Source: Sphingopyxis sp.
GTDB taxonomy: Bacteria > Pseudomonadota > Alphaproteobacteria > Sphingomonadales > Sphingomonadaceae
Reading direction: 5' to 3'
Assembly (NCBI GenBank): GCA_030145715.1
Contig: JAIXHQ010000005.1
Coordinates: 62,001 to 126,000 of the forward strand
DNA: 64,000 nucleotides
The translations under genes were made by a program, and so were the position numbers. Every line of letters begins with the position of its first letter. The first letter of the stretch is position 1. The notes under the pieces are model-generated. The model did not search any database. It saw nothing but the letters and a program-made list of their open reading frames with translations, and was not told where the DNA came from. Shown here one piece after another: positions 33,035-52,080 of this stretch.

Positions 33035-33081
33035 TTGACTTACGGATCGGTATGTCGCAGCGCATATATTACGGATCGGTA
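33035..33081 (+). promoter_or_regulatory. Regulon operator pair, promoter of hydrolase gene
   Basis: TTGACT (33035-33040) is followed by TTACGGATCGGTA at 33040-33052, and the same 13 bases recur at 33069-33081. The core TACGGATCGGTA is a near-palindrome shared with the other promoters of this island. The -10 box is not clear. Start of the hydrolase lies 60 bp downstream. Confidence 0.7.
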
Positions 33082-33140
33082 CTACGATGCGGATAATGGG
33101 TGTGCGTTGGCATATCGCGATTCATAGGGAAGGAGACGAG

Positions 33141-34334
33141 GTGACCAGTTCTCAAACAAAGGCTCATGCAGGCGCCTATGGGCCCGAAGGGTGGCTGCAC
33201 TGGCCAGAGCATAGCGAAAAATCCTTCAATTTCATTCGTGTGCTTGCGAGCGCGTACGAGGGTGCCTGCACCGTGGGGGAGGCTTTCCTGGTTGGCTCAC
33301 GGATCGAGCCCGGCAACGACGAAAGCTGGTACGTCGAGTGGACCCGGATGGGTGATGTAAGCCGGACGCGCGCGGAGGATGCGCTTGGAGCAGGTCATCC
33401 CGAGACTGCTCGTGGAAACTTTCTGCGCGCGGCGAACTATTACCGTGCCGCCGAATATTTCATGGATCATGGCGATCCGCGACGCCTCCAGACTTTCGAC
33501 AAGGTCGAAGATTCGTCGCAGAATTTTCTGCGGTTGATGAAACCTGCTGGCGAAGTCCTGCAAATTCCGTTCAACGACTCGTATCTCGACGCCTATTTCG
33601 TGCGAGCGCCTGATGCCGTGGCGCCCTATCCCGTTGTCATCTGCTTTGGAGGTGCTGACGAATATAAGGACGAATTGCTGCATGAGATGCCGCGGCACGC
33701 CTTTCCGCGAGGCCTCTCGTTGCTGCTGGTGGACCTGCCTGGCCAGGGCGGAAGCCTTCGCCGCCGCCAGCTCCATGCTCGCGTGGAAACAGAAAAGCCG
33801 GTCGGTGCCTGCGTCGATTATCTGCTCTCGCGTGGCGACGTCGATAGTGCGCGTATCGCGCTTTATGGCGCCAGCCTCGGCGGCTTTTACGCGCCGCGCG
33901 CCGCCAGTTTCGAGCATCGGCTCGCCTGCGTCGTCAGCGATGGCGCGATCTGGAATCGGTTGTCCGAAGAGGATTTCCTGCGCGCGTTCGAAAAAAACAA
34001 TCCGGACTCGTTGAATGTGCGGCAGCTCACATGGTTGGTTGGCGCCAAAGACTGGGACGAAACGATCGAGAAGTTGAAGAATTTCAAACTTGAGGGGGTC
34101 ATCGACAAAATTCGTTGCCCCTATCTGGTCGTCCATGGCGAGCAGGACTTTCTGGGAGCCGATATCGCCGAGGACAGCGTCAACTACGCGAGGTCCAAGG
34201 GGGTGGATGTGACGTACAAACTGTTCACTCCAGAGGAGACCGGCGCAGCGCATTGCCAAATGGACAATCCGACGCTTGGCCAGGAATATATCTGCGACTG
34301 GATCGCGGACAAGCTTGGGCTTGTTCAGACCTGA
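33141..34334 (+). CDS. Alpha/beta hydrolase, FrsA/dihydroxy-pseudooxynicotine hydrolase-like
   Basis: A 397-residue hydrolase with a helical N-terminal third (about 1-140) and a C-terminal alpha/beta fold. The nucleophile elbow is GASLGG, the acid is Asp in VHGEQDFLG, and the His is in TGAAHCQMD. YPVVICFGGADEYKDE is the oxyanion-hole strand. The size and the N-terminal cap match the DUF1100-type hydrolases that include 2,6-dihydroxy-pseudooxynicotine hydrolase, a C-C bond hydrolase. That substrate is not implied. GTG 33141 follows AAGGAG with ideal spacing. It is the first gene of the rightward operon with the MDR oxidoreductase. Confidence 0.85.
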   Translation: MTSSQTKAHAGAYGPEGWLHWPEHSEKSFNFIRVLASAYEGACTVGEAFLVGSRIEPGNDESWYVEWTRMGDVSRTRAEDALGAGHPETARGNFLRAANYYRAAEYFMDHGDPRRLQTFDKVEDSSQNFLRLMKPAGEVLQIPFNDSYLDAYFVRAPDAVAPYPVVICFGGADEYKDELLHEMPRHAFPRGLSLLLVDLPGQGGSLRRRQLHARVETEKPVGACVDYLLSRGDVDSARIALYGASLGGFYAPRAASFEHRLACVVSDGAIWNRLSEEDFLRAFEKNNPDSLNVRQLTWLVGAKDWDETIEKLKNFKLEGVIDKIRCPYLVVHGEQDFLGADIAEDSVNYARSKGVDVTYKLFTPEETGAAHCQMDNPTLGQEYICDWIADKLGLVQT

Positions 34335-34466
34335 CCAGCGCGCAGCAACCACCATCAGCCGCGGCGGAGCCATGCTTGAGGCTCCGCCGCGTGCTGAACA
34401 TCGCGGACTTGCGGACCATGTGCCTGCGGCCATGCCGAACGCGACATCGGCACTCAGGCAGAGGAA

Positions 34467-35600
34467 ATGGATATGGCCATGACAGGGCGCGAGATGCGGT
34501 CGCGGATCGATGAGACCGGTATCCTGACCCTCTCGCTTGAACCGGTCGCGATACCGGATCCAGGGGATGACGAAGTCATCGTGCGCGTCGAAGCCGCTCC
34601 GATCAACCCCAGCGACCTCGGCCTGCTGCTTGGACCAGCGGACCTTTCATCGATTGCCGAAGTTGGCACCCCGGAAAAGCCGTCATTGGCCTTTCATGTC
34701 CCGACGGCCCGGCTCGCCGGGGTGAAGGGGCGGCTGGGGGCTTCGCTTCGGATAGGCAATGAGGGCGCCGGAACCGTCGTTGCGGCGGGCCGGGACGCGA
34801 AGGCGCTGATCGGAAAGCGGGTCGGCATGATTGGCGGCGGTATGTACGCCGACTATCGGCGTATCGGCCGTCCCGACGTGATCGAACTCCCCGACGGCGC
34901 ATCCGCGGTCGATGGCGCCTCGATGTTCATCAACCCACTTACCGCGCTCGGCTTTGTCGAGACCGCGCGGCGCGAAGGTCACAAGGCCATCGTCCACACA
35001 GCGGCGGCCTCGAACCTTGGCCAGATGCTGCAAAAGATTTGCCTTGCCGACGGCATACCGCTCATCAACATCGTGCGATCGCAGGCGCAGGCCGATATCC
35101 TCAGAAACATCGGGGCGACCCATGTCCTGAACAGCGACGATGAAGGATTTTCCTGTCGCCTCGTCGATATGATCGCGGAAACGGGCGCGACCGTTGCGTT
35201 CGATTCGGTGGGCGGCGGGGCGCTGGGCAACACGATCCTGCAAGCCATGGAGCAGGCCGCAACGCGGCGCATGACCCAGTTTGACCGCTACGGCTCAGGA
35301 AGCTTCAAGCAGCTCTACATATATGGCGTGCTGAACGCGGGGCCGACGACGCTCAACTGCCTGACCTTCGGCTGGGAATGGAGCGTCTCGGGATGGCTCC
35401 TCTGGCCGTTCCTGAGGGATGCTGGGCGAGACGTCGAGAACCGGCTCCGTCAACGCGTCGCGGACGAACTCACCACGACATTCGCCAGCAGCTATTCGCA
35501 AACCATCGGACTCGCCGAAGCGCTGCAGCCTGACATGCTCCGTGCCTATTTCCTGAAGGCGACCGGTCAAAAGTTTTTGATCGACCCGACACGTGCCTGA
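34467..35600 (+). CDS. Zinc-independent MDR-family quinone oxidoreductase-like dehydrogenase
   Basis: A 377-residue medium-chain dehydrogenase/reductase. The N-domain has VRVEAAPINPSDLGLLLGPA, GNEGAGTVVAAG and VGMIGGGMYADYRRI. The Rossmann half has HTAAASNLGQMLQKI, then IGATHVLNSDD and VAFDSVGGGALGN. Zinc ligands (GHE, Cys cluster) are absent, so it is of the quinone oxidoreductase/enoyl reductase kind using NAD(P)H. Start ATG 34467 or ATG 34473; GAGGA at 34460 suits the latter. No regulon operator lies in the 130-bp gap before it, so it probably shares the hydrolase promoter. Confidence 0.85.
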   Translation: MDMAMTGREMRSRIDETGILTLSLEPVAIPDPGDDEVIVRVEAAPINPSDLGLLLGPADLSSIAEVGTPEKPSLAFHVPTARLAGVKGRLGASLRIGNEGAGTVVAAGRDAKALIGKRVGMIGGGMYADYRRIGRPDVIELPDGASAVDGASMFINPLTALGFVETARREGHKAIVHTAAASNLGQMLQKICLADGIPLINIVRSQAQADILRNIGATHVLNSDDEGFSCRLVDMIAETGATVAFDSVGGGALGNTILQAMEQAATRRMTQFDRYGSGSFKQLYIYGVLNAGPTTLNCLTFGWEWSVSGWLLWPFLRDAGRDVENRLRQRVADELTTTFASSYSQTIGLAEALQPDMLRAYFLKATGQKFLIDPTRA

Positions 35601-35698
35601 TTCCCCGGAGGCCGGACAGGCGATGATGAAATACGCATCCGCAAAAGGCACCCGAAAAAACGGCCAATTTTCAAGCGTTCTGCCCAACCGGGAGGCGA

Positions 35699-35740
35699 TT
35701 GACTTACCGAACGGAAACGGGTAATTGTTACGGATCGGAA
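35699..35740 (+). promoter_or_regulatory. Regulon operator pair, promoter of TonB receptor operon
   Basis: TTGACT at 35699-35704 overlaps TTACCGAACGGAA (35704-35716); a second site, TTACGGATCGGAA, is at 35728-35740. A possible -10 (TAATTG) sits 17 bp after the -35. The spacing from -35 to first site equals that at the other promoters. Confidence 0.7.
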
Positions 35741-35796
35741 ACATCTGATGACAAAATGGATATCCGTACACCGGAACGAGCGATAAGGGGATCGAG

Positions 35797-37869
35797 ATGA
35801 CGGGTGCTTCGAAATTAGGGCTGCTGGCAGGTTCCATCCTTGCGACGCTGTCGGGCCTCCCCACTCTGGCATTTGCCCAGGACAGCGGTGCGGCCGCTGC
35901 CGAGGACACGCAAGCTAGTCAGGGCGGCGACATCGTCGTCACGGCGCGAAAGCGCAACGAACGCATGATCGATGTTCCGGAGACGATTTCGGCGTTCTCG
36001 GACGCCTCGCTCCAAAAGGCGGGAATCAACAATCTCGACAAGCTTGGGCAGGCGGTGCCGAACATCGTGCTGAATCGGCGCGGCGACAATGAGCCGAACG
36101 TGGTGATCCGCGGCGTAGGCTCCTTCGGCAATGTTCAGGGCATCGGCTTCTACATCGATGACGTGCAGAACTTCACCGACCAGGCCAGCCGCCTCATCGA
36201 CCTTGAGCGCGTCGAAATTCTGAAAGGGCCACAAGGCACGCTCTACGGAGGCAGTTCGATCGGCGGGGCGGTGAAATATGTCACCAAGAAACCCTCGGAT
36301 ACATTCGAGGGCCGCATGTCCGGCGAGGTGGGCGGGCAATCCATTCTGAACGTCAATGCCTCGGTCAATGTGCCGCTGTCGGATATGGTCGCAGTCCGGG
36401 TATCGGGCTATGCCGATACCGGCGACGGCTTCATGAAAAATCCGATTACACGGATCAACAATGACAAGTCCGAGGAATATGGCTTTCGCGGAGCGTTGCG
36501 CTTCACGCCTTCGGATACGACCGACATCAATCTCAGCGTGCGCTATAGCTATCTGAATAATGGCGGAAACGACTATTATATCACGCCCAACGAGACGACG
36601 TACCAACGCGAATCCGGTCTCGACCAGAATATCTACAATCGTCGCCGCGTGTTCGGAGTCATCCTCAATGTCGAGCAGCAGATCGGCGATCTGTCGCTGA
36701 CCTCGCTGACGTCCTACACCGAGCGCAAGAACCGTATCCTTTGGGACCTCGACTATAGTGCTCTCGACGGTCTGTATGTTGCCCAGCGCGCGCCGATCAA
36801 AACCCGTGTCTTCACGCAGGAGGTTCGACTGCAGTCGGATAATGGCGAAGGTTTCAATTGGCTTGTGGGCGGCTATTATTCGCGGGTTCGCGATCGCAGC
36901 CTGACGCTCGTTGCCGACGCCGTCTTTGGCGTCGACTTTGGCGAGCCCTCCACCGTTCTCGATTTCAGCAATAATCGGAGCGACGAGAAAACCTACGCGG
37001 GTTTCGCCAATATCTCCTATAAATCGGGGCCATTTGAAATTGCGCTCGGCGCGCGGCTCAACCACAACGACTTCTTCGGCCTCAACCGCCTGCTCAATGA
37101 CAGCGCCAACGTGAAAGACACGGTCGTTCTGCCCAAGCTGACGCTGTCCTATAAGATCGATCCGGCGCTGATGCTCTACTTCAACGCGTCAGAAGGCTAT
37201 GAGCCAGCCAGGTTCACCCTTTTCGGTGAAACGTCGATCCTTCCCTACAAGGCTGAAACGGCGCGGAACTTCGAGCTGGGTGCCAAGGGGCAGACCGACA
37301 GCGGTCTGCTGTCTTACGAAGTTGCCGGCTTCTATATCAAGAGCAAGAACCGTCAGTTGGAGACGCTTATCCTCGACGATAGCGGCGTTCCCAACGAGGC
37401 GATCGGCAATGTCGGCGATGCGCGCACCTGGGGTGCGGAATTCTCCTTCACCTTGCGTCCGACGCGGGACCTCTCCTTCAATGCCAATGGCGGCTACATG
37501 AATTCGAAATTCACGGCAGGCCTCTTCGACGGCTTTCGGGTTCCCTATGCGCCGCGCTTTTCCGGCGGTATGAGCATCGACTATACCGCCGATATTTCGT
37601 CCGCCCTGAAGCTTTCGCTGCGTGCGGACGCAGCCCATAATTCGGGCTTCTTCTGGAACACCACCAACACGCTGCGGCAGGAATCCTACGATGTCGTCGG
37701 CGGGCGAATCGCGATCGGTGCCATCGACGACAAATGGGAATTGGCGGTCCGCGCCGATAACCTGCTGAACGAGAAATATCATACCGAACTGCAGCCGTTC
37801 GATCCCGACCTGATTGCACGCCGCGGCCAGCCGCGCCTGATCGTCGGAACGGTCACCGTTCGGTTCTGA
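35797..37869 (+). CDS. TonB-dependent outer-membrane receptor
   Basis: The 690-residue protein has a signal peptide ending TLAFAQ, a TonB box (DIVVTARKR), a plug domain with VVIRGVGSFGNVQGIGFYID, LERVEILKGPQGTLYGGSSI and GGAVKYVTKKPSD, then a beta barrel ending in an aromatic residue (VTVRF). No STN domain precedes the plug, so it is a transducer-free importer. Such receptors take up large or scarce substrates. Its operon partners are an MFS transporter and a GST, and its promoter carries two regulon sites, pointing to uptake of the pathway substrate. Confidence 0.93.
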   Translation: MTGASKLGLLAGSILATLSGLPTLAFAQDSGAAAAEDTQASQGGDIVVTARKRNERMIDVPETISAFSDASLQKAGINNLDKLGQAVPNIVLNRRGDNEPNVVIRGVGSFGNVQGIGFYIDDVQNFTDQASRLIDLERVEILKGPQGTLYGGSSIGGAVKYVTKKPSDTFEGRMSGEVGGQSILNVNASVNVPLSDMVAVRVSGYADTGDGFMKNPITRINNDKSEEYGFRGALRFTPSDTTDINLSVRYSYLNNGGNDYYITPNETTYQRESGLDQNIYNRRRVFGVILNVEQQIGDLSLTSLTSYTERKNRILWDLDYSALDGLYVAQRAPIKTRVFTQEVRLQSDNGEGFNWLVGGYYSRVRDRSLTLVADAVFGVDFGEPSTVLDFSNNRSDEKTYAGFANISYKSGPFEIALGARLNHNDFFGLNRLLNDSANVKDTVVLPKLTLSYKIDPALMLYFNASEGYEPARFTLFGETSILPYKAETARNFELGAKGQTDSGLLSYEVAGFYIKSKNRQLETLILDDSGVPNEAIGNVGDARTWGAEFSFTLRPTRDLSFNANGGYMNSKFTAGLFDGFRVPYAPRFSGGMSIDYTADISSALKLSLRADAAHNSGFFWNTTNTLRQESYDVVGGRIAIGAIDDKWELAVRADNLLNEKYHTELQPFDPDLIARRGQPRLIVGTVTVRF

Positions 37870-37972: not shown

Positions 37973-39340
37973 ATGGAAGACGGCAAGCAAGCGGCAGGAC
38001 GCGAAGTCTTCGATTTCTCGTGGCGAAGCGAGGCTTATGCATGGGGGGTCGTCGCGCTGCTGATTGTCGCCTTCACCTTTGCCATGATCGACAGGATGAT
38101 CCTGACGCTGCTCGTGGGGCCGCTGAAAGCCGATTTCCTGCTCTCCGACACACAGATCAGTCTCCTCCACGGGCTGGCATTTACGATGCTCTACGTCATC
38201 GTGGGGCTGCCGATGGGATGGCTGATCGACCGCTACAGCCGACGCATGATCGCCGGGGTCAGCGTGGCGGCGTGGAGCTTGATGACCGTTTTATGCGGCG
38301 TATCGGGAAATTTTACCCAGCTATTTCTCGCGCGGATGGGGGTGGGGATCGGAGAGGCCGGAATCTCCCCCGCGGCGCATTCGATGATCGCGGATTATTT
38401 TCCGCCGTCGCGCCTGTCGCTTCCCATCACGCTCTATTCCATCGGCGGGTCGGCGGGAAGCGGGCTGGCGCTGATCTTTGGAGGATCGATCGTCGATTAT
38501 GTGAGTCGGCTAGGGCGGTTCAGCGTACCGCTGTTCGGCGAAATCCATGCGTGGCAGGCCTCCTTCTTCGTCGCGGGTCTGCCGGGATTGGCCGTCGCGG
38601 CCGCCTTTCTGTTGGTGAAGGAGCCGCCGCGTCGAGGACGCCTCGTCGAAGGCGACGTCCGGGCCGTCCCAATCAGTGCTACGATCTCATTGCTTTGGGA
38701 AAAGAGTCGGTTCCTCATTCCGCAATTCTGCGCATCGGCGGCTTGCGCGCTGGCCCTGTTGTCGACGCTCGCGTGGATGCCGACCTATCTGAACCGAACA
38801 TATGGTCTGACCGCCGGCGAAGCTGGGCTTGGCTATGGTCTTGCCGTGCTGATCGGGGGCATTTCGGGGCTTGTGGCGTCGGGATGGGTTGCCAATCGCT
38901 TTGCAGCGGCGGGTCGCCGCGACGCGTCAATCATCGTTGCGCTGGGGTGTACGGTGTTGGCCTTTGTCCCTGCTGCGCTATCTCCGGTCGTGCCTGACCT
39001 CACGGCATCCTTGCTGTTGTCCGCCATAGCCGTGTTTGGCTTTGCTTCCGCCATCGCTCTCGCGCCCGCCGCGCTCCCCATCGTGATACCCAACGAAATG
39101 CGCGGGCAGATATATGCGGTATATCTGCTGACCATCTCCGTTCTGGGATATGCCGTGGGCCCCGTTGTCGTCGCGGTGATTACCGACGGTTTTTTCGGGG
39201 ACGACACGATGGTCGGCTGGTCGATGGCGAGCGTCGTCCTGGTCGCGGGCCCGGTCGCCGTGCTGCTATGGATACGGGCGCGGCAGCAATTTTCCAGACT
39301 GATCGAGAATGGATCGGGCAAAGGCGCGATCGCTATTTAA
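37973..39340 (+). CDS. MFS transporter
   Basis: A 455-residue major facilitator with twelve predicted helices. The first half has FTFAMIDRMILTLLVGPLKA, GLPMGWLIDRYSRRMIAGV (loop 2-3 signature) and ARMGVGIGEAGISPAAHSMI. The second half ends in ALPIVIPNEMRGQIYAV. This is close in style to the spinster-like/ACS subfamilies common in sphingomonad catabolic islands. It would carry the substrate or a product across the inner membrane. It follows the TonB receptor after about 100 bp and precedes the GST by 12 bp, in one operon. Confidence 0.92.
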   Translation: MEDGKQAAGREVFDFSWRSEAYAWGVVALLIVAFTFAMIDRMILTLLVGPLKADFLLSDTQISLLHGLAFTMLYVIVGLPMGWLIDRYSRRMIAGVSVAAWSLMTVLCGVSGNFTQLFLARMGVGIGEAGISPAAHSMIADYFPPSRLSLPITLYSIGGSAGSGLALIFGGSIVDYVSRLGRFSVPLFGEIHAWQASFFVAGLPGLAVAAAFLLVKEPPRRGRLVEGDVRAVPISATISLLWEKSRFLIPQFCASAACALALLSTLAWMPTYLNRTYGLTAGEAGLGYGLAVLIGGISGLVASGWVANRFAAAGRRDASIIVALGCTVLAFVPAALSPVVPDLTASLLLSAIAVFGFASAIALAPAALPIVIPNEMRGQIYAVYLLTISVLGYAVGPVVVAVITDGFFGDDTMVGWSMASVVLVAGPVAVLLWIRARQQFSRLIENGSGKGAIAI

Positions 39341-39352: not shown

Positions 39353-39976
39353 ATGAAGCTTTACTGGGCACCGCCTATGGCGTCGCTAGCCGTCGTGATC
39401 CTTGCCTATGAGACGGAACAGGCCATCGAACTTGTGCAGATGGATATGGAGAGCCGCCGGATGCCCGACGGCCGCTTGCTGTCGCAGATCAGCCCCAAAA
39501 ACTGCATGCCGGTCCTTGAACGAGCCGATGGGTCGATCCTGACCGAGACGGCCGCTATTCTCGACTGGCTTGCCGCCCAGGATCCGCTCGTCAGGCTGAG
39601 CGCGCCGGCGCATAGCGAAGACCATGTGCGTATCACGGAATGGATGGTCTTTTTCGCATCCGAACAGCACAAGCTGGCAACCTTGCTGTTCTGGGACATC
39701 GACGACGTCGCGAAAATGGCGGTGCGCACCCGCGTCATCGAACGGTTCGAGCATAGTGAAAAGGCGTTGGAAACTTCGGACTATCTTGTCGGCAATCGCC
39801 TGACGATCGCAGACCTTTATCTGCTGGTCATGGTCCGGGGCTCGATACACCTGTTCGAAGGCTTCGATCCCGCGATCGAATATCCGCGCCTCAATGCCTG
39901 GATGGGGCGCGTCGTGGCGCGTCCAGCCGTCCGGCGCGCGATGCGCGATCATGGCCTTGGCGATGCGGTGGGTTGA
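39353..39976 (+). CDS. Glutathione S-transferase family protein
   Basis: A 207-residue GST. The N-domain runs MKLYWAPPMASLAVVILAYE, then ISPKNCMPVLERADGSILTETAAILDWL with the cis-Pro and the Glu/Thr glutathione-binding residues. The C-domain has LVGNRLTIADLYLLVM. Its catalytic residue near the N-terminus is not the usual Ser or Tyr (the site is APPMAS). As the last gene of the receptor-transporter operon, it may conjugate or isomerise the imported compound or a reactive intermediate. Confidence 0.9.
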   Translation: MKLYWAPPMASLAVVILAYETEQAIELVQMDMESRRMPDGRLLSQISPKNCMPVLERADGSILTETAAILDWLAAQDPLVRLSAPAHSEDHVRITEWMVFFASEQHKLATLLFWDIDDVAKMAVRTRVIERFEHSEKALETSDYLVGNRLTIADLYLLVMVRGSIHLFEGFDPAIEYPRLNAWMGRVVARPAVRRAMRDHGLGDAVG

Positions 39977-39996: not shown

Positions 39997-41424
39997 TCAG
40001 TTTCGCCGGATGACGAGATTCCGGATTTCGGTCATATCCTCCATCGCGAAGCGGATGCCTTCGCGACCGAGGCCCGAATCCTTGACGCCGCCGTAAGGCA
40101 TGTTGTCGACGCGATAAGAGGGCACATCGTTGATCACGACGCCGCCGACGTCGAGCCGGTCCCAGGCGTCGAACATCTTGAACAGGTCGCGGGTGAAAAT
40201 TCCCGCCTGCAGTCCGAATTTGCTGTCGTTGACCTCGTCCAGCGCGGCCCCGAAGTCGGAGAAGCGTGAAAGCAGCGCGAGCGGGCCGAAAGCTTCCTCG
40301 GTATAGGCGGCCGCCGACCGGGGGACGTTTTCGAGCAATGTCGCTTCGAGCATCGCGCCCTTGCGCGTTCCGCCGCACAGAAGCGTGGCACCGCTCGCGA
40401 TCGCCTGCCCTATCCAGTCATCGAGCCTGCAAGCTTCGCTTTCGGAGATCATTGGGCCGATGAACGTGCTGCGATCCTTTGGGTCGCCCGACACGAGGCG
40501 CTTGGTTCTCGCGACGAGCATATCCCGAAAGCGGTCATAGATTGTGTCGTGGATCAGGATGCGCTGGACGCCGATGCAGCTTTGGCCCGACTGGTAGAAG
40601 GCGCCGAAGATGACACGTTCGAGCGCATCGTCGAGGTCCGCGTCGGCGTCGATGATCACGGCGGCATTGCCGCCGAGTTCGAGCACGAGCTTCTTTTTGC
40701 CGGACCTTGCCTTCAGGGCCCAACCCACGTCGGGCGATCCGGTGAAGGAGAGGAGTTTCAGCCGGTTGTCCTCGGTGAGGAGGTCGGCGCCGTCTCGGTG
40801 CGCGGGCAGGATGGAGAAGGCGCCTTCGGGCAGGTCCGTTTCGGCGAGTACTTCGCCGATGATGATCGCTCCCAGCGGAGTACGGCTCGCGGGCTTCATC
40901 ACAAATGGGCAGCCGACCGCGATCGCCGGCGCAATCTTGTGGGCGGCAAGATTGAGGGGGAAGTTGAACGGGGAGATGAAGGAGCAGGGTCCGATCGGCA
41001 CGCGCCTCCACATGCCCTGATACCCTTTGGCGCGCGGGCTGATGTCGAGAGGTTGTACTTCGCCATACATCCGCGTCGATTCTTCGGCGGCGATGCGAAA
41101 ACTATCGATCAGCCGCGAGACCTCTCCCTCCGCATCCTTGATCGGTTTGCCGGCTTCGACGCAGAGGGCGAAGGCGAGTTCGTCGAACCGTTCGCGAAAA
41201 CGCCTGACGCAATGGTCGAGCACCGCCTGCCGTTCGTAGCTTGCCATTCGTGCCATCGGTGCGGCCGCACGAACCGCGCCCGCAATCGCCGTGTCGATGA
41301 TGCCTGCGTCGGCTTGCGCCACGCGAAAAGCCACCGCGCCGGTATATTTATCGGTCACCTCAAGGTCGGCGTTGGGCTGTCGTGCCCGATTGTTGAGATA
41401 GAGCGGGTAAATATCTTTGAGCAT
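39997..41424 (-). CDS. NAD(P)-dependent aldehyde dehydrogenase
   Basis: A 475-residue ALDH. The catalytic Glu is in LELGGNAAVI, and the nucleophilic Cys is in FYQSGQSCIGVQRI. PFNFPLNLAAHKIAPA and FTGSPDVGW are the cofactor-binding elements. The start is ATG 41424 (MLKDIYPLYLNN); the frame opens at 41451. It is the last gene on the leftward side after the aminotransferase and kinase; the MITE lies between. It would oxidise an aldehyde formed by the aminotransferase/phospholyase to a carboxylate, though the exact substrate is unknown. Confidence 0.93.
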   Translation of the reverse strand: MLKDIYPLYLNNRARQPNADLEVTDKYTGAVAFRVAQADAGIIDTAIAGAVRAAAPMARMASYERQAVLDHCVRRFRERFDELAFALCVEAGKPIKDAEGEVSRLIDSFRIAAEESTRMYGEVQPLDISPRAKGYQGMWRRVPIGPCSFISPFNFPLNLAAHKIAPAIAVGCPFVMKPASRTPLGAIIIGEVLAETDLPEGAFSILPAHRDGADLLTEDNRLKLLSFTGSPDVGWALKARSGKKKLVLELGGNAAVIIDADADLDDALERVIFGAFYQSGQSCIGVQRILIHDTIYDRFRDMLVARTKRLVSGDPKDRSTFIGPMISESEACRLDDWIGQAIASGATLLCGGTRKGAMLEATLLENVPRSAAAYTEEAFGPLALLSRFSDFGAALDEVNDSKFGLQAGIFTRDLFKMFDAWDRLDVGGVVINDVPSYRVDNMPYGGVKDSGLGREGIRFAMEDMTEIRNLVIRRN

Positions 41425-41451
41425 GATGGTCTTTCGTCTTCCCGTGGGCAC

Positions 41452-43041: not shown

Positions 43042-43051
43042 GATAATCCTC

Positions 43052-44103: not shown

Positions 44104-44144
44104 TTACCGATCGGTATTATCGAAAATGTCGAACATGAAGTCAA
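44104..44144 (-). promoter_or_regulatory. Promoter and operator of the kinase-aminotransferase-ALDH operon
   Basis: On the minus strand TTGACT (44144-44139) is 17 bp from GATAAT (44121-44116), a good sigma-70 promoter. The operator TTACCGATCGGTA, whose core TACCGATCGGTA is a perfect palindrome, covers 44104-44116, touching the -10 box and start site. Confidence 0.75.
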
Positions 44145-44298: not shown

Positions 44299-44337
44299 TT
44301 GACTTACCGAAGCGTACAGGTCAATTGCGGATCGGTA
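44299..44337 (+). promoter_or_regulatory. Regulon operator pair, promoter of hyuAB-SDR operon
   Basis: TTGACT (44299-44304) overlaps TTACCGAAGCGTA (44304-44316); a second site, TTGCGGATCGGTA, is at 44325-44337. The arrangement matches the TonB receptor promoter, with 21 bp between site starts. Confidence 0.7.
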
Positions 44338-44403
44338 ACAAATCGACGAGCGCAACCGCCCTCCGGTTGGCACTCGCGGCAAAGCGAACATGAAACGGGC
44401 TAA

Positions 44404-46491
44404 ATGATGCGATTGGCATGCGATACCGGCGGCACGTTTACGGATCTGATCGTCGAGGACGATTCGGGTCAGCTTGGCATGTACAAGGCCTCGACAACTC
44501 CCGCCGACCCGGTTCAGGGCGTCATCGACGCGCTGCAACTGGCAGCCGATGACGCGGCAGTTTCCCTTGCCGATTATCTCGCGCGCGCCGACAGCTTCAT
44601 CCACGGTACGACCCACGCAATCAACGCGGTCATCACTGGCCGGACGGCCCGGACAGCCTTGCTGACAACGCAGGGGCATCCCGACATATTGGTGTTGCGC
44701 GAAGGCGGACGCGCCGAGCCGTTCAACTTCACCATTGCCTATCCCGAACCCTATATTCCGCGGGCTCTCACCTTTGAAGTGCCCGAGCGCGTGAGCGCCG
44801 ACGGCAAGATCGTCCGGGCGCTGGATGAAGCCGCAATTGTCGCGACCTGCGCGAAATTGCGCGAGGCCAAGGTCGAGGCGGTGGCTGTTGCCTTGCTATG
44901 GTCCGTGGCCAATGACGCGCATGAACAGCGCGTTCGCGAGATATTGCGCCAGCATCTGCCATCGGTCCCGGTGACGCTATCGAGCGAACTCAATCCCACC
45001 ATCCGCGAATTCCGCCGTGCTTCGTCTGCTGCGATCGACGCATCGTTGAAACCGCTCATGGCTTCCTATCTCGGGTCGCTGTCCCGGCGGCTGAAGGACG
45101 CAGGTTTCATGGGTCGCCTGCTCGTGCTTACGTCGCAAGGCGGCATGGTCGATGCCGATGAAATCGCCGCCTCGCCGATCCGCGCGATCAATTCCGGGCC
45201 TTCGCTCGCACCGATCGCGGGCAAATATTTTGGCGAATTGGCGAAGCCTGGTGCCGATATCGTCGTGGCCGACACCGGCGGCACGACCTATGATGTCAGC
45301 TTGGTGCGTGGCGGGCGGATTCCGCTCACGCGCGATGCCTGGATCGGACAACCCTTTCGCGGCCATCTGACCGGCTTTCCGTCGGTCGATGTCCAGAGCG
45401 TCGGCGCAGGCGGGGGGAGCATCGCGCATGTCGACAAGGGCGGCCTGCTTCGGGTCGGTCCGCAAAGCGCGGGCTCGACACCGGGGCCGGTTTGCTACGC
45501 CCGCGGTGGCAGCGAGCCGACTTTGACCGACGCCTGCGTGGCGCTGGGTTATGTGGACCCCGACTATTTTCTGGGCGGCAAGATGTGGCTCGACCGCGAA
45601 GCGGCGCGCCATGCGATCAAGGATAGGGTCGCCGATCCGCTGGGCATGAGCGTCGAGGAGGCGGCGGCAGCGATCGTCACGCTCGCGACCGAGAATATGG
45701 CCAGCGCGATCGCCGATATTACCGTCAATCAGGGCATCGATCCGCGGCATTCTGTACTGATCGGCGGCGGCGGCGCCGCGGGGCTCAACTCGATCTTCAT
45801 CGCCCGCCGCATGAACATTCCCCGGCTGGTGATCCCGGAGGTCGGCGCCGCGCTCAGCGCCGCGGGCGCGCTAATGTCCGAACTGGCGGCCGATTATCGC
45901 GCGGTCGAATATATGGTCACGACGAATTTCGACATGGCGCGCGCCAATGAAATTCTGGGTGGCCTCAGGCGCAAGGGCGAGGCCTTTCTTGCCGAAACCG
46001 CGGGTGCGAGCTTCGACCCGCAGATCGAGCTGTCGCTAGAGGCGCGCTACGAGCAGCAAGTGTGGGAAATCGAAGTCCCGCTGTCGTTCGACCATTTTTC
46101 GAGCGAGTCCGATATCGGAAAGCTCGCCGAGGCGGTTCACCGGTCGCATGAGCGCATCTTCGCCTTCCGCGACGAAGGCTCAGCGATCGAGATTATCGGC
46201 TGGTCGGCGCGCGCGAGTTGCCGCGTCCATCAGCACATCATCGGGCGGATGAAGCCCCATGCCAGAGAGGCTGAAAGAGCTGGAACCCGTCGCGTCTATT
46301 TCGGCGGTTCGGGCTTTTGCGATGCGGCCGTGGTTCCATTCGCCACGCTTGCCGTCGACCAGGTTCATGAAGGCCCGGCGCTCATCGAATCGCCGTTCTC
46401 CAGCGTGGTCGCCGACCCCGGTTCGGTTTTTTGGCGGACTAACGACGGCAGCCTCGTCATCGACATCGCCTCGCAGGGAGCCGACGTATGA
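44404..46491 (+). CDS. hyuA: Hydantoinase/oxoprolinase family, A subunit
   Basis: A 695-residue ATPase subunit of the HyuA/OplAH family. The actin-like nucleotide fold begins LACDTGGTFTDLIVEDD, with the second phosphate loop ADTGGTTYDVSLVRGG. VQSVGAGGGSIAHVDKGG, GSTPGPVCYARGG and the late ILIGGGGAAGLNSIFIA-type helix region (GGGGAAGLN) are typical. The family hydrolyses 5-membered and larger cyclic amides (hydantoins, 5-oxoproline, caprolactam) or carboxylates acetone-type compounds using ATP. Its stop overlaps hyuB by 4 bp (ATGA), consistent with a complex. Confidence 0.93.
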   Translation: MMRLACDTGGTFTDLIVEDDSGQLGMYKASTTPADPVQGVIDALQLAADDAAVSLADYLARADSFIHGTTHAINAVITGRTARTALLTTQGHPDILVLREGGRAEPFNFTIAYPEPYIPRALTFEVPERVSADGKIVRALDEAAIVATCAKLREAKVEAVAVALLWSVANDAHEQRVREILRQHLPSVPVTLSSELNPTIREFRRASSAAIDASLKPLMASYLGSLSRRLKDAGFMGRLLVLTSQGGMVDADEIAASPIRAINSGPSLAPIAGKYFGELAKPGADIVVADTGGTTYDVSLVRGGRIPLTRDAWIGQPFRGHLTGFPSVDVQSVGAGGGSIAHVDKGGLLRVGPQSAGSTPGPVCYARGGSEPTLTDACVALGYVDPDYFLGGKMWLDREAARHAIKDRVADPLGMSVEEAAAAIVTLATENMASAIADITVNQGIDPRHSVLIGGGGAAGLNSIFIARRMNIPRLVIPEVGAALSAAGALMSELAADYRAVEYMVTTNFDMARANEILGGLRRKGEAFLAETAGASFDPQIELSLEARYEQQVWEIEVPLSFDHFSSESDIGKLAEAVHRSHERIFAFRDEGSAIEIIGWSARASCRVHQHIIGRMKPHAREAERAGTRRVYFGGSGFCDAAVVPFATLAVDQVHEGPALIESPFSSVVADPGSVFWRTNDGSLVIDIASQGADV

Positions 46492-48212
46492 CCTTCGACA
46501 CGCTTCCCTCGCTGCAGCCGCTCGACGGCGCGCAGCTTGCCATCCTCAACAACCGGTTCGAGGGCGTGGCACGCAAGATGGCGAACACATTGCTCAGAGC
46601 TGGGCGCTCGGGCGTGCTGAACCGCGCGCGCGATTTCTCCGCCTGTATCGTCACCGCCGACAATCTTCTGCTGGCAGCGGCCGAGAGCCTGCCGATCCAT
46701 GTTCTGTCCGGGCCCGACCTGATGGCGGCATCGATGCAGCAATTTCACCCAGATCTGAAGCGGGGCGACGCCTTCCTGCACAACTCGCCCTATCATGGCT
46801 GTTCGCACCCGGCCGATCATACGATCCTTGTGCCAGTGATGGACGATGACGGGGTACACCGCTTCACGGTCGTCGCCAAGGCGCACCAGGCCGACATCGG
46901 CAATTCGATCCCGACCACCTATCATGGCACGGCAAGCGACGTGTATGAGGAAGGCGCGCTGATTTTTCCGGCGGTCAAGGTCCAGCAGAACTATCAGACG
47001 ATCGACGACATCGTGCGCATGTGTCAGATGCGCATCCGCGTCCCCGAACAGTGGAAGGGCGATTTCCTCGCCATGCTCGGTGCCGCACGGATCGGCGAGC
47101 GCGAGATACTCGATCTCGCCGCCGAGATTGGCTGGGACCAGCTCGACGCGTTCCGCGAACGCTGGTTCGACTACAGCGAAAAGAGCATGATCGATGCGAT
47201 CGCGAAGCTTCCGTCAGGCCGGGTTTCGGCGACGAGCACGCATGATCCGATCCCGGGGACGCCGGCAGAGGGAATCGTCATCAAGGCAGAGGTAACCGTC
47301 GACGCCGACGCCGGCCGGATAATCGTCGACTTGCTGGACAATATCGACAGCCTGCCGTGCGGCCTCAATCTCAGCGAAGCCTGCGCGCGGACCAGCGCGC
47401 TGATCGGCGTGTTCAATTCGATCGACCATATGGTGCCAAAGAATGCCGGAGCCTTTCGCCGGGTAGACGTGCGTTTGCGCGAAGGCAGCGTCTGCGGCAT
47501 CCCCGTCCATCCGGCTAGCTGTTCGGCGGCGACGACGAACCTTGCGGACCGGGTTTGTGCCGCGACGCAATCCGCCTTGGCGCAGATCGCCGACGGGGTC
47601 GGAATGGCGGAGGTCGGCGCTGGCCTGTCGCCCGCCAGCGGCGTGATTTCGGGCAGAGACCCGCGCACCGGAAAAAAGTTTATCAACCAGCTGTTCCTCG
47701 GTGCGACCGGCGGCGGCGCCACTGCGCATAACGATGCGTGGATGACCTATCTTCACGCCGGCAACGGCGGTTTGTGCTTCATCGACAGCGTCGAGCTTGA
47801 TGAACTTTGCCAACCGATACTCGTCGAAAGTCGGCGCCTGCTCAAGGATACCGAGGGGCCGGGTCGGCAGCGCGGCGCGCCAAGTCTGGAGGTCGCGTTC
47901 GGGCCCGTGGGTTGCGATGTCGATGTCGCCTTTGTCAGTGACGGCACGGTCAACGGGCCGACTGGCGTTCGCGGTGGCGGAACGGGTGGCCAATCGCGGC
48001 AATATCTCCGGAAAGTCGACGGAACGCTCGTCGAGACCGATCAGGTGAGCGTCCAGCGCGTCAAGGATGGCGAGGTTATCATTTCCATCACCTGCGGCGG
48101 CGGCGGCTATGGCGACCCGCGCGATCGTGACCCGGCGAAAGTTCGACACGATGTCGCGGAGGGCTGGATCAGTCCGCAGCGGGCGGCGGAGATCTACGGA
48201 ATGTCGGAATAA
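46488..48212 (+). CDS. hyuB: Hydantoinase/oxoprolinase family, B subunit
   Basis: A 574-residue HyuB-type subunit. Conserved elements are NRFEGVARKMANTLLRAG, HNSPYHGCSHPADHTILVP with probable metal-ligand His and Asp residues, and RGGGTGGQSR with CGGGGYGDPRDRDPAKVR at the C-terminus. With HyuA it forms an ATP-dependent cyclic amide hydrolase or related carboxylase. No third (gamma) subunit gene follows, which argues against acetone carboxylase and for amide-ring opening. It is followed 11 bp later by the SDR gene. Confidence 0.93.
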   Translation: MTFDTLPSLQPLDGAQLAILNNRFEGVARKMANTLLRAGRSGVLNRARDFSACIVTADNLLLAAAESLPIHVLSGPDLMAASMQQFHPDLKRGDAFLHNSPYHGCSHPADHTILVPVMDDDGVHRFTVVAKAHQADIGNSIPTTYHGTASDVYEEGALIFPAVKVQQNYQTIDDIVRMCQMRIRVPEQWKGDFLAMLGAARIGEREILDLAAEIGWDQLDAFRERWFDYSEKSMIDAIAKLPSGRVSATSTHDPIPGTPAEGIVIKAEVTVDADAGRIIVDLLDNIDSLPCGLNLSEACARTSALIGVFNSIDHMVPKNAGAFRRVDVRLREGSVCGIPVHPASCSAATTNLADRVCAATQSALAQIADGVGMAEVGAGLSPASGVISGRDPRTGKKFINQLFLGATGGGATAHNDAWMTYLHAGNGGLCFIDSVELDELCQPILVESRRLLKDTEGPGRQRGAPSLEVAFGPVGCDVDVAFVSDGTVNGPTGVRGGGTGGQSRQYLRKVDGTLVETDQVSVQRVKDGEVIISITCGGGGYGDPRDRDPAKVRHDVAEGWISPQRAAEIYGMSE

Positions 48213-48222
48213 TAGGGAGCGC

Positions 48223-48984
48223 ATGATGAGACTGGATGGCAAGATAGCAATCGTAACGGGCGGATCGCAGGGCATCGGCGAAGCGATCGCGAAACGGCTG
48301 GCGAAGGAGGGGGCGACAGTCGCCGTCAACTACAGCCGCAACGACGCGGCCGCCCAAAAGGTCGTCGCCGACATCGAGGCGGCGGGCGGAACGGCAAAGG
48401 CGTTTCGCGGCGATTGCTCGAACGTGGCCGATATCAGGCGCTTTGTCGGTGAGGTCGGCGATACGTATGGCCGGATCGACATCCTGGTGAACAACGCCGG
48501 CACCTTCCTCACCGTTCCGGTCGCTGATACGACCGAAGAGATCTGGGACGCTCAGATCGATCTCAACCTCAAAGGCACATTCTTTGCGGTACAGTCGGTC
48601 TTGCCCTGGTTCCGCAAACAGGGCGGCGGAAAGGTCATCAACCTTTCGTCGATCGCCGGCGTCGACGCCTTTCCCAATTGTCCCGCATATTGCGCGTCCA
48701 AGGGCGGCGTTTCTCTCCTTACCAAGGCGCTGGCTTCCGAACTGGCCAGCGAGGGCATCAACGTCAACGCCATCGCGCCGGGCAATGTCGCGACGCCGAT
48801 CAATGCGCATCTGCGCGGGCCCGGGCACGAGGATTATGTCGCGTTGATGAGCAGCCGTACGCCGACCGGCCGGGCTTTCATGGACGCCGATGACATGGTC
48901 GGCGCAGTCGCGTTTCTTGCCAGCGACGACGCCAAGGGCGTCCACGGCCTGATCATGCTCGTCGATGACGGCTGGTGTGCCTGA
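48223..48984 (+). CDS. Short-chain dehydrogenase/reductase
   Basis: A 253-residue classical SDR. Cofactor motif TGGSQGIG is near residue 13. The catalytic set is Asn in LVNNAG, Ser in NLSSIAGV, and Tyr-Lys in YCASKGG. The Arg-like residues after the first strand (NYSRND) favour NADP(H). The start is ATG 48223 or 48226 after AGGGAG. It ends the hyuAB operon, so it probably oxidises or reduces an alcohol/ketone formed from the ring-opened compound. Confidence 0.92.
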   Translation: MMRLDGKIAIVTGGSQGIGEAIAKRLAKEGATVAVNYSRNDAAAQKVVADIEAAGGTAKAFRGDCSNVADIRRFVGEVGDTYGRIDILVNNAGTFLTVPVADTTEEIWDAQIDLNLKGTFFAVQSVLPWFRKQGGGKVINLSSIAGVDAFPNCPAYCASKGGVSLLTKALASELASEGINVNAIAPGNVATPINAHLRGPGHEDYVALMSSRTPTGRAFMDADDMVGAVAFLASDDAKGVHGLIMLVDDGWCA

Positions 48985-49202
48985 CACCCCGACGCAAGCC
49001 CAGGGGCTGGGGACGGTACTTGCGGCTGACGAGCCGCGAACATATGGCATTGAATTGCGCGCCGGGTTCTAAAACAATCACCCCCATCACGGACAGCCGA
49101 CACCTGCCAGCATGATCGTCGTCCGTGATGGCGGGCAAGATAATCCCAGGGGGAAAGGCCCCGCCGTCTGTCGCCGGACGGGCGCCGGAAATCCCGGTGA
49201 TG

Positions 49203-49249: not shown

Positions 49250-49702
49250 TCAGTCTTGAGCGTCCGCTTTGAGAAATGCATCGACCTTGGCCGATCCCCT
49301 TAACGCGCGAAGGAAAATCAGCGGGTTCCAATAGTCGATATAATGGACGATGCGGCCATTACGCGTCCGGATGACGCAGATGTAGCGTTGATCATAGGGC
49401 TCGCCCGTCTGGACTCCCTTTCCGAAGCCGTTGACTTCGATGATGATCGTTTCGGGATCTTTGGTCTCATAGACGACCGGCGTGCTCATCCGGTCGAGCG
49501 TTATCATGCCCGCCAGGCTTTCGAGGTGGGCCGCAATTTGCGCTGATCCCTCAAGCCGCGACGTGCCGCCGGGGAAAGCGAAGGGGAATTCAAACACGAT
49601 ATCGTCGGCAACAAGGTCCAAAAAGCTGTCGCCTGTGCCGCTGATCCGAGCGCCCAGTACGTTGCGCAACATGGCTGTGAAGGCTGGAACGGATTCTGTC
49701 AT
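49250..49702 (-). CDS. SnoaL/NTF2-like protein
   Basis: A 150-residue alpha+beta barrel of the SnoaL-like fold: a helical start (FTAMLRNVLGARISGTGDSF), LVADDIVFEFPFAFPGG, a helix, and strands around IIIEVNGFGKG and YICVIRTRNGRIVHYIDYWNPL. These proteins are cyclases, dehydratases or isomerases of small hydrophobic compounds, or binding modules. It follows the nitronate-monooxygenase-like gene on the same strand after about 128 bp and probably shares its promoter. Confidence 0.85.
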   Translation of the reverse strand: MTESVPAFTAMLRNVLGARISGTGDSFLDLVADDIVFEFPFAFPGGTSRLEGSAQIAAHLESLAGMITLDRMSTPVVYETKDPETIIIEVNGFGKGVQTGEPYDQRYICVIRTRNGRIVHYIDYWNPLIFLRALRGSAKVDAFLKADAQD

Positions 49703-49830: not shown

Positions 49831-50859
49831 TTAGCTGGCCGTCAGTTCCCTGGGCTGGCGCTGCGCCGCCTTGACCTCGCGGGCGAGTTCGGCGCGCGCA
49901 TCATGATATTCCTCGGCGAGGCGCGCGATGAACTGCCCGGCGGTCCCGCGCGCCGTCACCGCGCCGATCCCCTGGCCGCAGCCCCAGATGTCGCGCCAGA
50001 CCTTGGCGTTCTGACTGCCTCCGGACCCAAAGCCGCTGCCATTTGTGCCGAAGTCCATCTTTGAGGGATCGCTTTGGGGCAAAGCCTTCGGATCGAGCCC
50101 CGCCTGACGGATCGACGGCGCCAGATAGTTGCCGTGTACCCCGGTGAAGAGGTTGCTGTAGATGACGTCGGATGCCGAACTTTCGACGATCATGTCCTTA
50201 TAGGCATCGACGGCATTGGCCTCGGCCGCGGCGATGAAGGCAGAGCCGATATAGGCAAGATCGGCGCCCATCGCCTGAGCGGCCAGGATGGCGCGGCCCG
50301 AAGCGATCGAGCCCGAGAGAGCCAGCGGGCCTTCGAACCAGGTGCGAATTTCCTGGATCAACGCGAAGGGCGACAGGGTGCCCGCATGACCGCCGGCCCC
50401 CGCCGCGACCGCGATCAGGCCGTCGGCGCCTTTGTCGATCGCTTTGCGGGCAAAGCTGTCGGTGATCACATCATGCATCACAAGGCCGCCATAGGAATGG
50501 ATGGCGTCGTTTACTTCGGCTCGTGCGCCAAGCGAGGTGATGACCAGCGGAGCCCGGTATTTCACGCAAAGCTCGATGTCCTGCTCCAGCCGGTTGTTCG
50601 TCTTGTGAACGATCTGGTTGACCGCGAACGGTGCCGAAGGCGTTTCGGGATGGTCGCGATCCCAGGCCGCCAATTCCTCCACGATACGCGCCAGCCACTC
50701 GTCGAGTTGGGACAGCGGCCGGGCATTCAGCGACGGAAAGGAACCGACGATGCCAGCCTTGCACTGGGCGATCACCAGATCGGGCCCCGAGATGATGAAA
50801 AGCGGCGAAGCGATGATTGGCAACCGGAGGCGCTCGCGCAGAAGGGGCGGCAAAGACAT
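49831..50859 (-). CDS. Nitronate monooxygenase-like flavoprotein
   Basis: A 342-residue FMN-dependent TIM barrel of the NMO/2-nitropropane dioxygenase family. It has IIASPLFIISGPDLVIAQCK at the N-terminus, the FMN-phosphate and catalytic-loop region AVAAGAGGHAGTLSPF, and IASGRAILAAQAMGADLAYIG. The family oxidises nitronates but also contains enoyl reductases, so the real reaction is open. Its promoter on the minus strand carries the regulon operator; it faces away from the XRE-cupin gene. Confidence 0.88.
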   Translation of the reverse strand: MSLPPLLRERLRLPIIASPLFIISGPDLVIAQCKAGIVGSFPSLNARPLSQLDEWLARIVEELAAWDRDHPETPSAPFAVNQIVHKTNNRLEQDIELCVKYRAPLVITSLGARAEVNDAIHSYGGLVMHDVITDSFARKAIDKGADGLIAVAAGAGGHAGTLSPFALIQEIRTWFEGPLALSGSIASGRAILAAQAMGADLAYIGSAFIAAAEANAVDAYKDMIVESSASDVIYSNLFTGVHGNYLAPSIRQAGLDPKALPQSDPSKMDFGTNGSGFGSGGSQNAKVWRDIWGCGQGIGAVTARGTAGQFIARLAEEYHDARAELAREVKAAQRQPRELTAS

Positions 50860-50903: not shown

Positions 50904-50932
50904 CATATCGGTATTACCGATACGTAAGTCAA
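50904..50932 (-). promoter_or_regulatory. Promoter and operator of the NMO-SnoaL operon
   Basis: On the minus strand TTGACT (50932-50927) overlaps TTACGTATCGGTA (50927-50915). A possible -10, GATATG (50909-50904), is 17 bp downstream and sits in a second imperfect site (ATACCGATATG). The layout is the same as at the plus-strand promoters. Confidence 0.65.
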
Positions 50933-50998
50933 TGCTCTCCTTCCAATTCTTTCGACGCAACTTTCGTCGTAGAATCTATATGTGTGAAAATTGAACGC

Positions 50999-51010
50999 TA
51001 CCGATCCGTT
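50999..51010 (+). promoter_or_regulatory. Single regulon-like site upstream of the XRE-cupin regulator
   Basis: TACCGATCCGTT matches the regulon consensus at all but the last position. It lies about 110 bp before the regulator's likely start, so autoregulation is plausible. No TTGACT box adjoins it. Confidence 0.5.
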
Positions 51011-51122
51011 GCAGCAAGGGATTTATTCTCGTCTTTGAAGGGGGATGCTGCTAAGCGACCCCCTCGGCTCCTCGCCGATTGCACTCGCATATGCGCGCGG
51101 CAGCCAGTCAAAGGTCAAAAAT

Positions 51123-51899
51123 ATGTCCTCAACAGCCGATACTGACAAAAAGCCCGATTTCGACGGCCTTCCCGATGACGGTCCTTCGGAGCGCAGCGCC
51201 TGGCGCCGCGATTCGGCCGCTCATGATGTGAATGCGCGGCTGGGTCAACGAATCCGCCAGCACCGTGAGGCTTTGGGCATGTCGCTCGCGGTGGCGAGCA
51301 AGGTGACGGGCATTCCCGCCGCGACGCTCTCGCGGATCGAGAACAACCGGATGTCACCGACGATGCCGGTCGTGCTGAAGCTGATGGCGGGGCTGCGGAT
51401 TACCTGGGCGGGACTGATGGCGCCGCTGCCGCCGCAACCCCACGAATCTCAGATCAGCATCGCCTTGCCCGGAGAGGGGGAGGTGATCGACGTCCAGGGG
51501 AACACTTATACGGTGCCGCACGCGACGAGCCGGCTCAACCATCAGATTCAGCCGGTGATCTTCGACATCTGCAGCAAGACTGTGGAGGAGGCCGGCGGTC
51601 TTCGGGGGCATGGCGGGGCTGAACTTTGCTATGTGCTGTCGGGTGTCCTGATCATGCATTTCGTCGATCGCGCGCCGCTGGAACTCGGTGTCGGGGCGAG
51701 TGTGCTGTTCAATGGCGAAATCCCGCATGCTTATGTGGCAAAAGGGCGCGGACCGACGCGCGTGCTCCTGTTCAATGCGGTCGATCCGTTGATGCAAAGC
51801 CCTGACGAGATGAAGCCGTTGATTACGACATTGCGTCAGTCTGCCGTCGCTGTCGCGCCGCCGGTGGGCTTTGCCGGCAATTTCGCCGGCGCCCCCTGA
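51123..51899 (+). CDS. XRE-family regulator with C-terminal cupin domain
   Basis: A 258-residue protein with a lambda-repressor-type helix-turn-helix (LGQRIRQHREALGMSLAVAS, then TGIPAATLSRIENNRMSPT), a linker, and a cupin barrel. Barrel elements are GGAELCYVLSGVLIMHF and LGVGASVLFNGEIPHAY. Such proteins sense small ligands and repress catabolic genes. It is the only transcription factor among the island's catabolic genes, so it is the leading candidate to bind TACSGATCSGTA; the site could equally suit a TetR-type protein encoded elsewhere. The start ATG 51123 is chosen by the domain; the frame opens at 51045. Confidence 0.88.
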   Translation: MSSTADTDKKPDFDGLPDDGPSERSAWRRDSAAHDVNARLGQRIRQHREALGMSLAVASKVTGIPAATLSRIENNRMSPTMPVVLKLMAGLRITWAGLMAPLPPQPHESQISIALPGEGEVIDVQGNTYTVPHATSRLNHQIQPVIFDICSKTVEEAGGLRGHGGAELCYVLSGVLIMHFVDRAPLELGVGASVLFNGEIPHAYVAKGRGPTRVLLFNAVDPLMQSPDEMKPLITTLRQSAVAVAPPVGFAGNFAGAP

Positions 51900-52050
51900 C
51901 TCGCGCGCGGGCAATATCTGGGCCAGGATTACCGAACCGGAATGAAGTAGAGGTGGCAGGCCTTGTGGTCTAATCACAAAATATTGTTATATAGGGATTA
52001 AATTTATAGTTCGAGTTGGATTCACTCCGTAAATTTTCACTATATCTGAA

Positions 52051-52080
52051 TTGACTTACCGATCCGTATTGGCCTACTCA
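52051..52080 (+). promoter_or_regulatory. Promoter and operator of the LLM-fragment/acyl-CoA synthetase operon
   Basis: TTGACT (52051-52056) overlaps TTACCGATCCGTA (52056-52068); TACTCA at 52075-52080 is a weak -10 at 18 bp. The surrounding 150 bp are markedly A+T-rich relative to the genes. Confidence 0.7.

Follow-up and report, generated by a model that had tools for sequence, protein, structure and literature searches.

Introduction

Regulators that combine an XRE-type DNA-binding domain with a cupin domain have been described in Pseudomonas aeruginosa. In the accessible portion of the relevant study, they act as inhibitors, have binding sites adjacent to the genes encoding them and govern the uptake and processing of small molecules (PMC7901475). 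A large-scale survey of XRE-family proteins, in the portion available, takes palindromes found ahead of XRE-family genes as autoregulatory (PMC12565409). Here, we analyse a stretch of 64,000 nucleotides from Sphingopyxis sp. (assembly GCA_030145715.1, contig JAIXHQ010000005.1, positions 62,001 to 126,000 of the forward strand), hereafter the window, which holds a putative catabolic island encoding one such XRE-cupin protein. The original prediction for this DNA was that a 12-bp palindrome defines a six-promoter regulon across the island, with the XRE-cupin protein as the candidate regulator. Our analysis argues that the island very probably forms one regulon under its own XRE-cupin repressor, with the palindromes as predicted operators.

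A palindrome recurs at the promoters of the island

The 12-mer motif, TACSGATCSGTA, lies within a full 14-bp palindrome, TTACSGATCSGTAA, which starts one base further left. At up to two mismatches, TACSGATCSGTA has 18 matches in the window, compared with 5.62 expected (sd 2.23; maximum 12 in 100 dinucleotide shuffles), and 13 of the 18 fall in 33035-52080. One match, at 42475, is inside the gene of a pyridoxal phosphate (PLP) enzyme and was excluded from the site count. All ten sites of the original prediction are present in the sequence, eight of its coordinates marking the start of the 14-mer and two that of the 12-mer; compared with the 12-mer, four are perfect, four have one mismatch and two (35705 and 44305) have two. 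The list was nevertheless incomplete, as two further conserved sites, at 35631 and 51929, had been overlooked. Similarly, six promoters do carry a TTGACT -35 box, but the site-bearing promoters number seven once the XRE-cupin gene's own site (50998) is counted. The total is 12 sites at seven promoters, listed here with their state in the related Sphingopyxis panaciterrae where noted:

33035..33082, plus strand: hydrolase-MDR operon promoter; TTGACT; operators at 33040-33053 and 33069-33082, both kept in S. panaciterrae
35631..35644, plus strand: weak upstream operator ATACGCATCCGCAA, identical in S. panaciterrae
35699..35741, plus strand: TonB receptor-MFS-GST operon promoter; TTGACT; operators at 35704 and 35728
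44104..44144, minus strand: kinase-set promoter; TTGACT, 17 bp, GATAAT; operator TTACCGATCGGTAT at 44104-44117
44299..44338, plus strand: hyuA-hyuB-SDR promoter; TTGACT; operators at 44304 and 44325
50914..50932, minus strand: promoter of the nitronate monooxygenase (NMO)-SnoaL genes; TTGACT; operator TTACCGATACGTAA at 50914-50927
50998..51011, plus strand: operator CTACCGATCCGTTG ahead of the regulator gene, identical in S. panaciterrae
51929..51942, plus strand: operator-like TTACCGAACCGGAA past the regulator gene, identical in S. panaciterrae within a diverged stretch
52051..52069, plus strand: promoter ahead of a gene stub and a ligase; TTGACT; operator TTACCGATCCGTAT at 52056-52069

Across both strands, the window contains 12 TTGACT hexamers, six of which belong to these promoters. 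The promoter geometry described earlier is borne out: at five promoters the 14-mer begins at the last T of the hexamer and occupies the early part of the spacer, while at the sixth (44104, minus strand) it sits on GATAAT and overlaps the end of this -10 box. The paired sites, 21-29 bp apart, were also found as predicted, with the second operator 29, 24 and 21 bp onward at the hydrolase, TonB and hyuA promoters, respectively. At a 17-bp spacing, the -10 sequences GATAAT and GATATG are present at two promoters.

We scanned the strain's own assembly (2.83 Mb, 89 contigs, 87.8% complete) for the motif. All four perfect matches to TACSGATCSGTA lie within the 19-kb island; equal frequency at random genome positions, which the original prediction had named as evidence against it, was not observed. 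At up to one mismatch, eight of 16 places are in the island. The other eight look like background because a reversed-pattern control gives nine places genome-wide, and a wider regulon in this genome was rejected at that control level. The strict pattern TTACNNAWNNGTAA occurs at three places in the genome, one being 50914. At up to one mismatch, TTGACTTACSGATCSGTA was retrieved from three of 397 genomes of the sphingomonad family, the own genome among them. Contig C6 of the assembly, viewed only as open frames, has two near-matches 151 bp apart.

The sites are conserved in Sphingopyxis panaciterrae

A genome-collection scan, which sees only relatives sharing exact short peptides, yielded a single close relative of the XRE-cupin protein, in S. 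panaciterrae DSM 27164 (88% identical, C2:745831-746604). Scanning related genomes for both the motif and the XRE-cupin gene had been proposed as a check, and both were found in an orthologous S. panaciterrae island. The two islands are collinear, window positions 33018-53880 corresponding to approximately 30 kb, with 14 matched proteins 77-97% identical. Every site is kept, including those at 35631 and 51929. Over five noncoding stretches, the islands agree at 162 of 168 positions within sites, compared with 559 of 913 other positions, among which the -35 boxes are counted. The S. panaciterrae genome (4.8 Mb) has five perfect matches, all in its island, and 21 places at up to one mismatch, 12 of them in the island (reversed control, 13). 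Perfect sites are, in both genomes, confined to an uptake and catabolic island, which fits a local regulon. At E ≤1e-30, the regulator was found in just two of 80 genomes of the genus; the island is therefore accessory.

The XRE-cupin protein is the probable regulator

The XRE-cupin protein is, as originally stated, the sole regulator among the 15 island proteins scanned. Its XRE helix-turn-helix domain matches PF13560 (41.0 bits, cut-off 27) and PF01381 (39.8 bits, cut-off 23), and its C-terminal cupin domain matches PF07883 (44.5 bits, cut-off 27.2). Palindromes lie beside its own gene at 50998 and 50914, both identical in S. panaciterrae. Among solved structures searched with the XRE-cupin sequence profile, there was no close one with DNA; the nearest, 1y9q, matches the helix-turn-helix part only.

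The palindrome was also found near distant relatives of the regulator. Three plasmids, two of Burkholderia arboris and one of Phyllobacterium, carry TTAC-N6-GTAA beside a homologous hydrolase gene (53% and 55% identical to the island hydrolase in B. arboris and Phyllobacterium, respectively) near the gene of an XRE-cupin 32-40% identical to that of the island. The B. arboris XRE-cupins reach a local identity of 37-40% with the island protein, or 32-34% over the alignment, and one B. arboris stretch also encodes HyuA, HyuB, kinase, PLP-enzyme and SDR homologues. The 45-kb stretch L112 contains two exact TTAC-N6-GTAA sequences, TTACGTATCCGTAA and TTACGGATAGGTAA, against 0.16 in base shuffles, and the 30-kb stretch L115 contains three, TTACCGATACGTAA, TTACATATACGTAA and TTACGTATCAGTAA, against 0.10. 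Every one of them is upstream of hydrolase and/or XRE-cupin genes. The regulator of Phyllobacterium sp. 628, 57% identical to a B. arboris one, was fetched afterwards as a prediction test, and TTACATATATGTAA was found 65 bp before its gene. The palindrome accompanies this regulator clade in Sphingopyxis, Burkholderia and Phyllobacterium.

Plasmid stretches of Cupriavidus and Niveispirillum, whose HyuB is 65-66% identical, yielded no XRE-cupin match at E ≤1e-8; when two mismatches to TACSGAWCSGTA are allowed, they contain two and four sites, respectively, of which one has a single mismatch. For the class of G551, a search for more TTAC-type regulators retrieved none from 303 genomes at E ≤1e-30 and was in itself uninformative.

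Proposed mechanism and competing explanations

In the proposed model, an XRE-cupin dimer would recognise the 14-bp palindrome. Bound between the -35 and -10 boxes at five promoters, the protein would stop RNA polymerase from starting, while an operator by the -10 box or the start would exert the block at one promoter and at the second sites of three others. Paired operators could strengthen the block, and the operator ahead of the regulator's own gene would provide autoregulation. A pathway substrate or intermediate held in the cupin domain would cause the protein to release the DNA, so that the receptor, transporter and enzyme operons would be switched on together. Repression is implied by the placement of nine of the 12 sites, which lie close to the start or between the -35 and -10 boxes. 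In this model we infer physical binding, dimer formation, the direction of control (repression, not activation) and the nature of the inducer.

Several observations weigh against the proposed regulon. The -10 sequence at 17-bp spacing is poor at four of the six promoters (CAGCGC, TAATTG, CAATTG and CTACTC). Two of the strain's TetR loci (L018 and L024) hold a weak site with two mismatches, and in L115 a TetR gene lies 0.7 kb past the XRE-cupin gene. Furthermore, the 28.6-kb Phyllobacterium stretch has an additional TTAC-N6-GTAA at 28399, far from the regulator, with 0.26 expected in all.

Palindromes adjoining the -35 box are typical of TetR operators. The sites might instead be bound by a regulator, TetR-type or other, whose gene lies elsewhere than in the island, with the XRE-cupin gene only one of its targets; that gene could be missing from the incomplete assembly of the strain, and the TetR gene of L115 also speaks for this alternative. 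We regard this as improbable. TetR domains are found 12 times in the own assembly and 50 times in S. panaciterrae, and neither island has one; the fetched flanks of the 12 own TetR loci contain no site at up to one mismatch. The sole S. panaciterrae near-match beside a TetR gene, C2:512397, was discarded, as it lies inside a 638-codon open frame. The TetR gene of L115 is preceded (16160-16270) by two copies of ATATCAACTGATAT, likely a TetR operator unrelated to the island motif, and the island-type site is absent there. A tblastn search with this TetR protein matched nothing in the window, the S. panaciterrae island, the Phyllobacterium stretch or L112. On these two grounds, the different palindrome and the lack of matches, it is not the regulator that these loci share. 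None of the 23 features of the Phyllobacterium stretch is named TetR, and none was seen among the L112 frames scanned, which were some of the frames only.

It is also unlikely that the XRE-cupin protein binds the sites and mainly activates, or does both. The sites at 50998, 35631 and 51929 overlap no evident promoter core, as an activator might allow, but the other nine occupy the positions by which repression is implied, and the P. aeruginosa XRE-cupins tested are inhibitors in the portion of PMC7901475 available. Chance or compositional enrichment of the motif is hardly credible. Roughly a third of the window matches are expected by chance (the 5.62 given above), and matches outside the island stand at the control level; still, none of 100 shuffles reaches the window count, perfect matches are restricted to the island in two genomes and the sites are far better conserved than their flanks. 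We discarded this explanation on those grounds. The original proposal of a common regulator, namely the XRE-cupin protein, is instead supported by the conservation of the sites, the TetR-free islands, the putative operators near distant relatives and the helix-linked family pattern described below.

Recognition helix and operator in the XRE-cupin family

We examined upstream regions of XRE-cupin genes at 82 homologue loci, a sample returned as loci rather than as every match and containing at least one gene twice (L050 and L122, without a site). Adding the regulators of the window and of S. panaciterrae and two from B. arboris makes 86 regions, and four plasmid loci bring the set to 90. The symmetric pattern TTxC-N6-GyAA is present in 24 of the 86 regions, with 30 sites against 1.65 expected from base shuffles. 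In the 90 regions, there are 33 sites, compared with 3.16 in dinucleotide shuffles (maximum 9 in 100 shuffles). When all 256 half-sites were ranked over the 90 regions, TTTC (TTTC-N6-GAAA) came first, with 22 sites in 18 loci, none in a control of coding DNA matched in length and two in the downstream control. The half-sites ranked after it are G+C-rich and equally common in the downstream control. The TTAC half-site gives seven sites in five loci and none in either control.

The third base tends to go with the end of the recognition helix. Among site-bearing loci of the 86 regions, 16 of 18 with a helix ending in K (as in STLSK) have TTTC, while those with a helix ending in R have TTAC in four of six cases (the window, S. 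panaciterrae and two B. arboris) and TTGC in two. A P(A/E)AT(L/F)SRIE recognition helix is present at all five TTAC loci and at no other locus of the set. Upstream of the XRE-cupin gene at locus L146, we observed TTGCATAACTGCAA and other half-sites resembling TTGC/GCAA, perhaps a third operator type.

The evidence that this clade would read the TTAC-N6-GTAA palindrome is good; for a general code it is weaker. A broader proposal is tentative, and we hold it as somewhat more doubtful than not: many XRE-cupins of Proteobacteria might share TTxC-N6-GyAA, with the third base set by the helix (STLSK-like reading T, P(A/E)AT(L/F)SRIE reading A), and catabolic islands might travel as sealed repressor-plus-operator units. 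Some results speak against such a code, and also against the proposed regulator of the island. The helices of L147 and L149 have ATLSR without the P and IE, and these loci show no site; 63 of the 90 upstream regions have no exact TTxC palindrome; and the site was known beforehand for four of the five TTAC regulators, Phyllobacterium being the one fresh test. In the phylogenetic tree, the five TTAC regulators group together with support (99/89) and are joined by long branches, and the association between helix and base rests on few events for this reason.

Gene content of the island

The island stretch (33018-53880), of which 15 proteins were scanned, includes the following genes:

33141..34334, plus strand: alpha/beta hydrolase, FrsA-like; GTG start at 33141 after AAGGAGA picked by eye, the frame being open from ATG 33087
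34467..35600, plus strand: zinc-type alcohol dehydrogenase-family protein (MDR), next gene in the same direction
35797..37869, plus strand: TonB-dependent receptor
37973..39340, plus strand: MFS transporter
39353..39976, plus strand: glutathione S-transferase (GST) family protein
39997..41451, minus strand: aldehyde dehydrogenase
41716..43164, minus strand: class III aminotransferase-fold PLP enzyme; open frame, the true start may be further in
43052..44083, minus strand: APH-type kinase, first gene of the kinase-PLP enzyme-aldehyde dehydrogenase set
44404..46491, plus strand: HyuA-like subunit; best NCBIfam model caprolactamase alpha, 556.4 bits (cut-off 1000)
46488..48212, plus strand: HyuB-like subunit; best model caprolactamase beta, 244.2 bits (cut-off 1000)
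48067..48984, plus strand: short-chain dehydrogenase (SDR); open frame overlapping hyuB
49250..49702, minus strand: SnoaL-like protein
49831..50859, minus strand: nitronate monooxygenase-family flavoprotein
51045..51899, plus strand: XRE-cupin regulator, starting at ATG 51045 or 51123
52141..52338, plus strand: luciferase-like monooxygenase stub of 65 codons, a whole gene in S. panaciterrae
52338..53879, plus strand: AMP-forming acyl-CoA ligase, directly downstream of the 52051 promoter and the stub

Caprolactam was rejected as the substrate, since the curated CapA and CapB cut-offs are not reached by either subunit. The open frames of the kinase and the PLP enzyme (41716-44083) overlap. Below its cut-off, they match the kinase part and the PLP part, respectively, of the fused protein PRK06148; they may be a candidate amino-alcohol kinase/phospholyase pair. 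Family architecture and known pathways suggest that an amino alcohol would be phosphorylated and then eliminated to an aldehyde for the aldehyde dehydrogenase. The inducer is perhaps an amide, lactam or amino-alcohol compound, judging from the HyuAB pair, the kinase, the PLP enzyme and the aldehyde dehydrogenase.

Between the start of the luciferase-like monooxygenase and the ligase, S. panaciterrae has approximately 5.8 kb extra, containing the rest of the monooxygenase together with MFS and TonB genes under two more sites. The window strain probably lost these genes; an operator-bearing promoter still precedes its ligase. At 48986-49136, S. panaciterrae has a further 3.3 kb or so, holding a TonB receptor gene and an open frame of 287 codons that matches no Pfam family, and a short tail in the window at that place matches the end of this TonB protein. 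A tRNA-Cys gene (32517-32590) lies about 430 bp ahead of the left end of the conserved island. Considered as an insertion site, it showed no repeat of its last 15, 18 or 20 bases on either strand of the window or on the plus strand of the S. panaciterrae stretch.

Comparison with described systems

Working from the sequence alone, the analysis assigns a putative regulator and its operators to an entire catabolic island so far uncharacterised. It also points to a simple relation of the recognition helix to the operator within a family of regulators that is common but poorly mapped. If true, the helix rule would allow the operators of uncharacterised XRE-cupins to be predicted from their protein sequence, and the inducer of the repressor would offer a handle for finding what the island degrades.

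The enzymes partly resemble the caprolactam cluster of Pseudomonas jessenii, which, in the portions of the sources available (PMC6061476; PMC8453981), likewise has a HyuAB-type ATP-dependent pair, a class III PLP enzyme and an aldehyde dehydrogenase. Unlike that cluster, the island has HyuAB proteins far below the CapA/CapB cut-offs and a PRK06148-like kinase and PLP enzyme; the hydrolase, the NMO-family protein, the GST and the TonB receptor are additional to it.

A literature search, with most subscription journals outside its range, found no paper on this regulon. In the text examined of PMC12565409, neither the regulon nor a TTTC/TTAC split that follows the helix is described; two DNAs tested there share a TTAC segment, as in the island operator. 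The P. aeruginosa regulators PauR, PsdR, ErfA and others are like the island protein in having XRE and cupin domains and sites by their own gene. Their sites are palindromic where determined and their targets concern small-molecule uptake or processing, as in the island. Most have one or two direct targets and PauR has 29 scattered genes, whereas the island has about seven clustered promoters (all in the available portion of PMC7901475). The PsdR site is TTAAG-N5-CTTAA, according to the part of PMC10965056 available, while that of the island is TTAC-N6-GTAA. Local repressors of the XRE-cupin type are already known, and the island differs from the described ones in its predicted operator and in its roughly seven clustered promoters.

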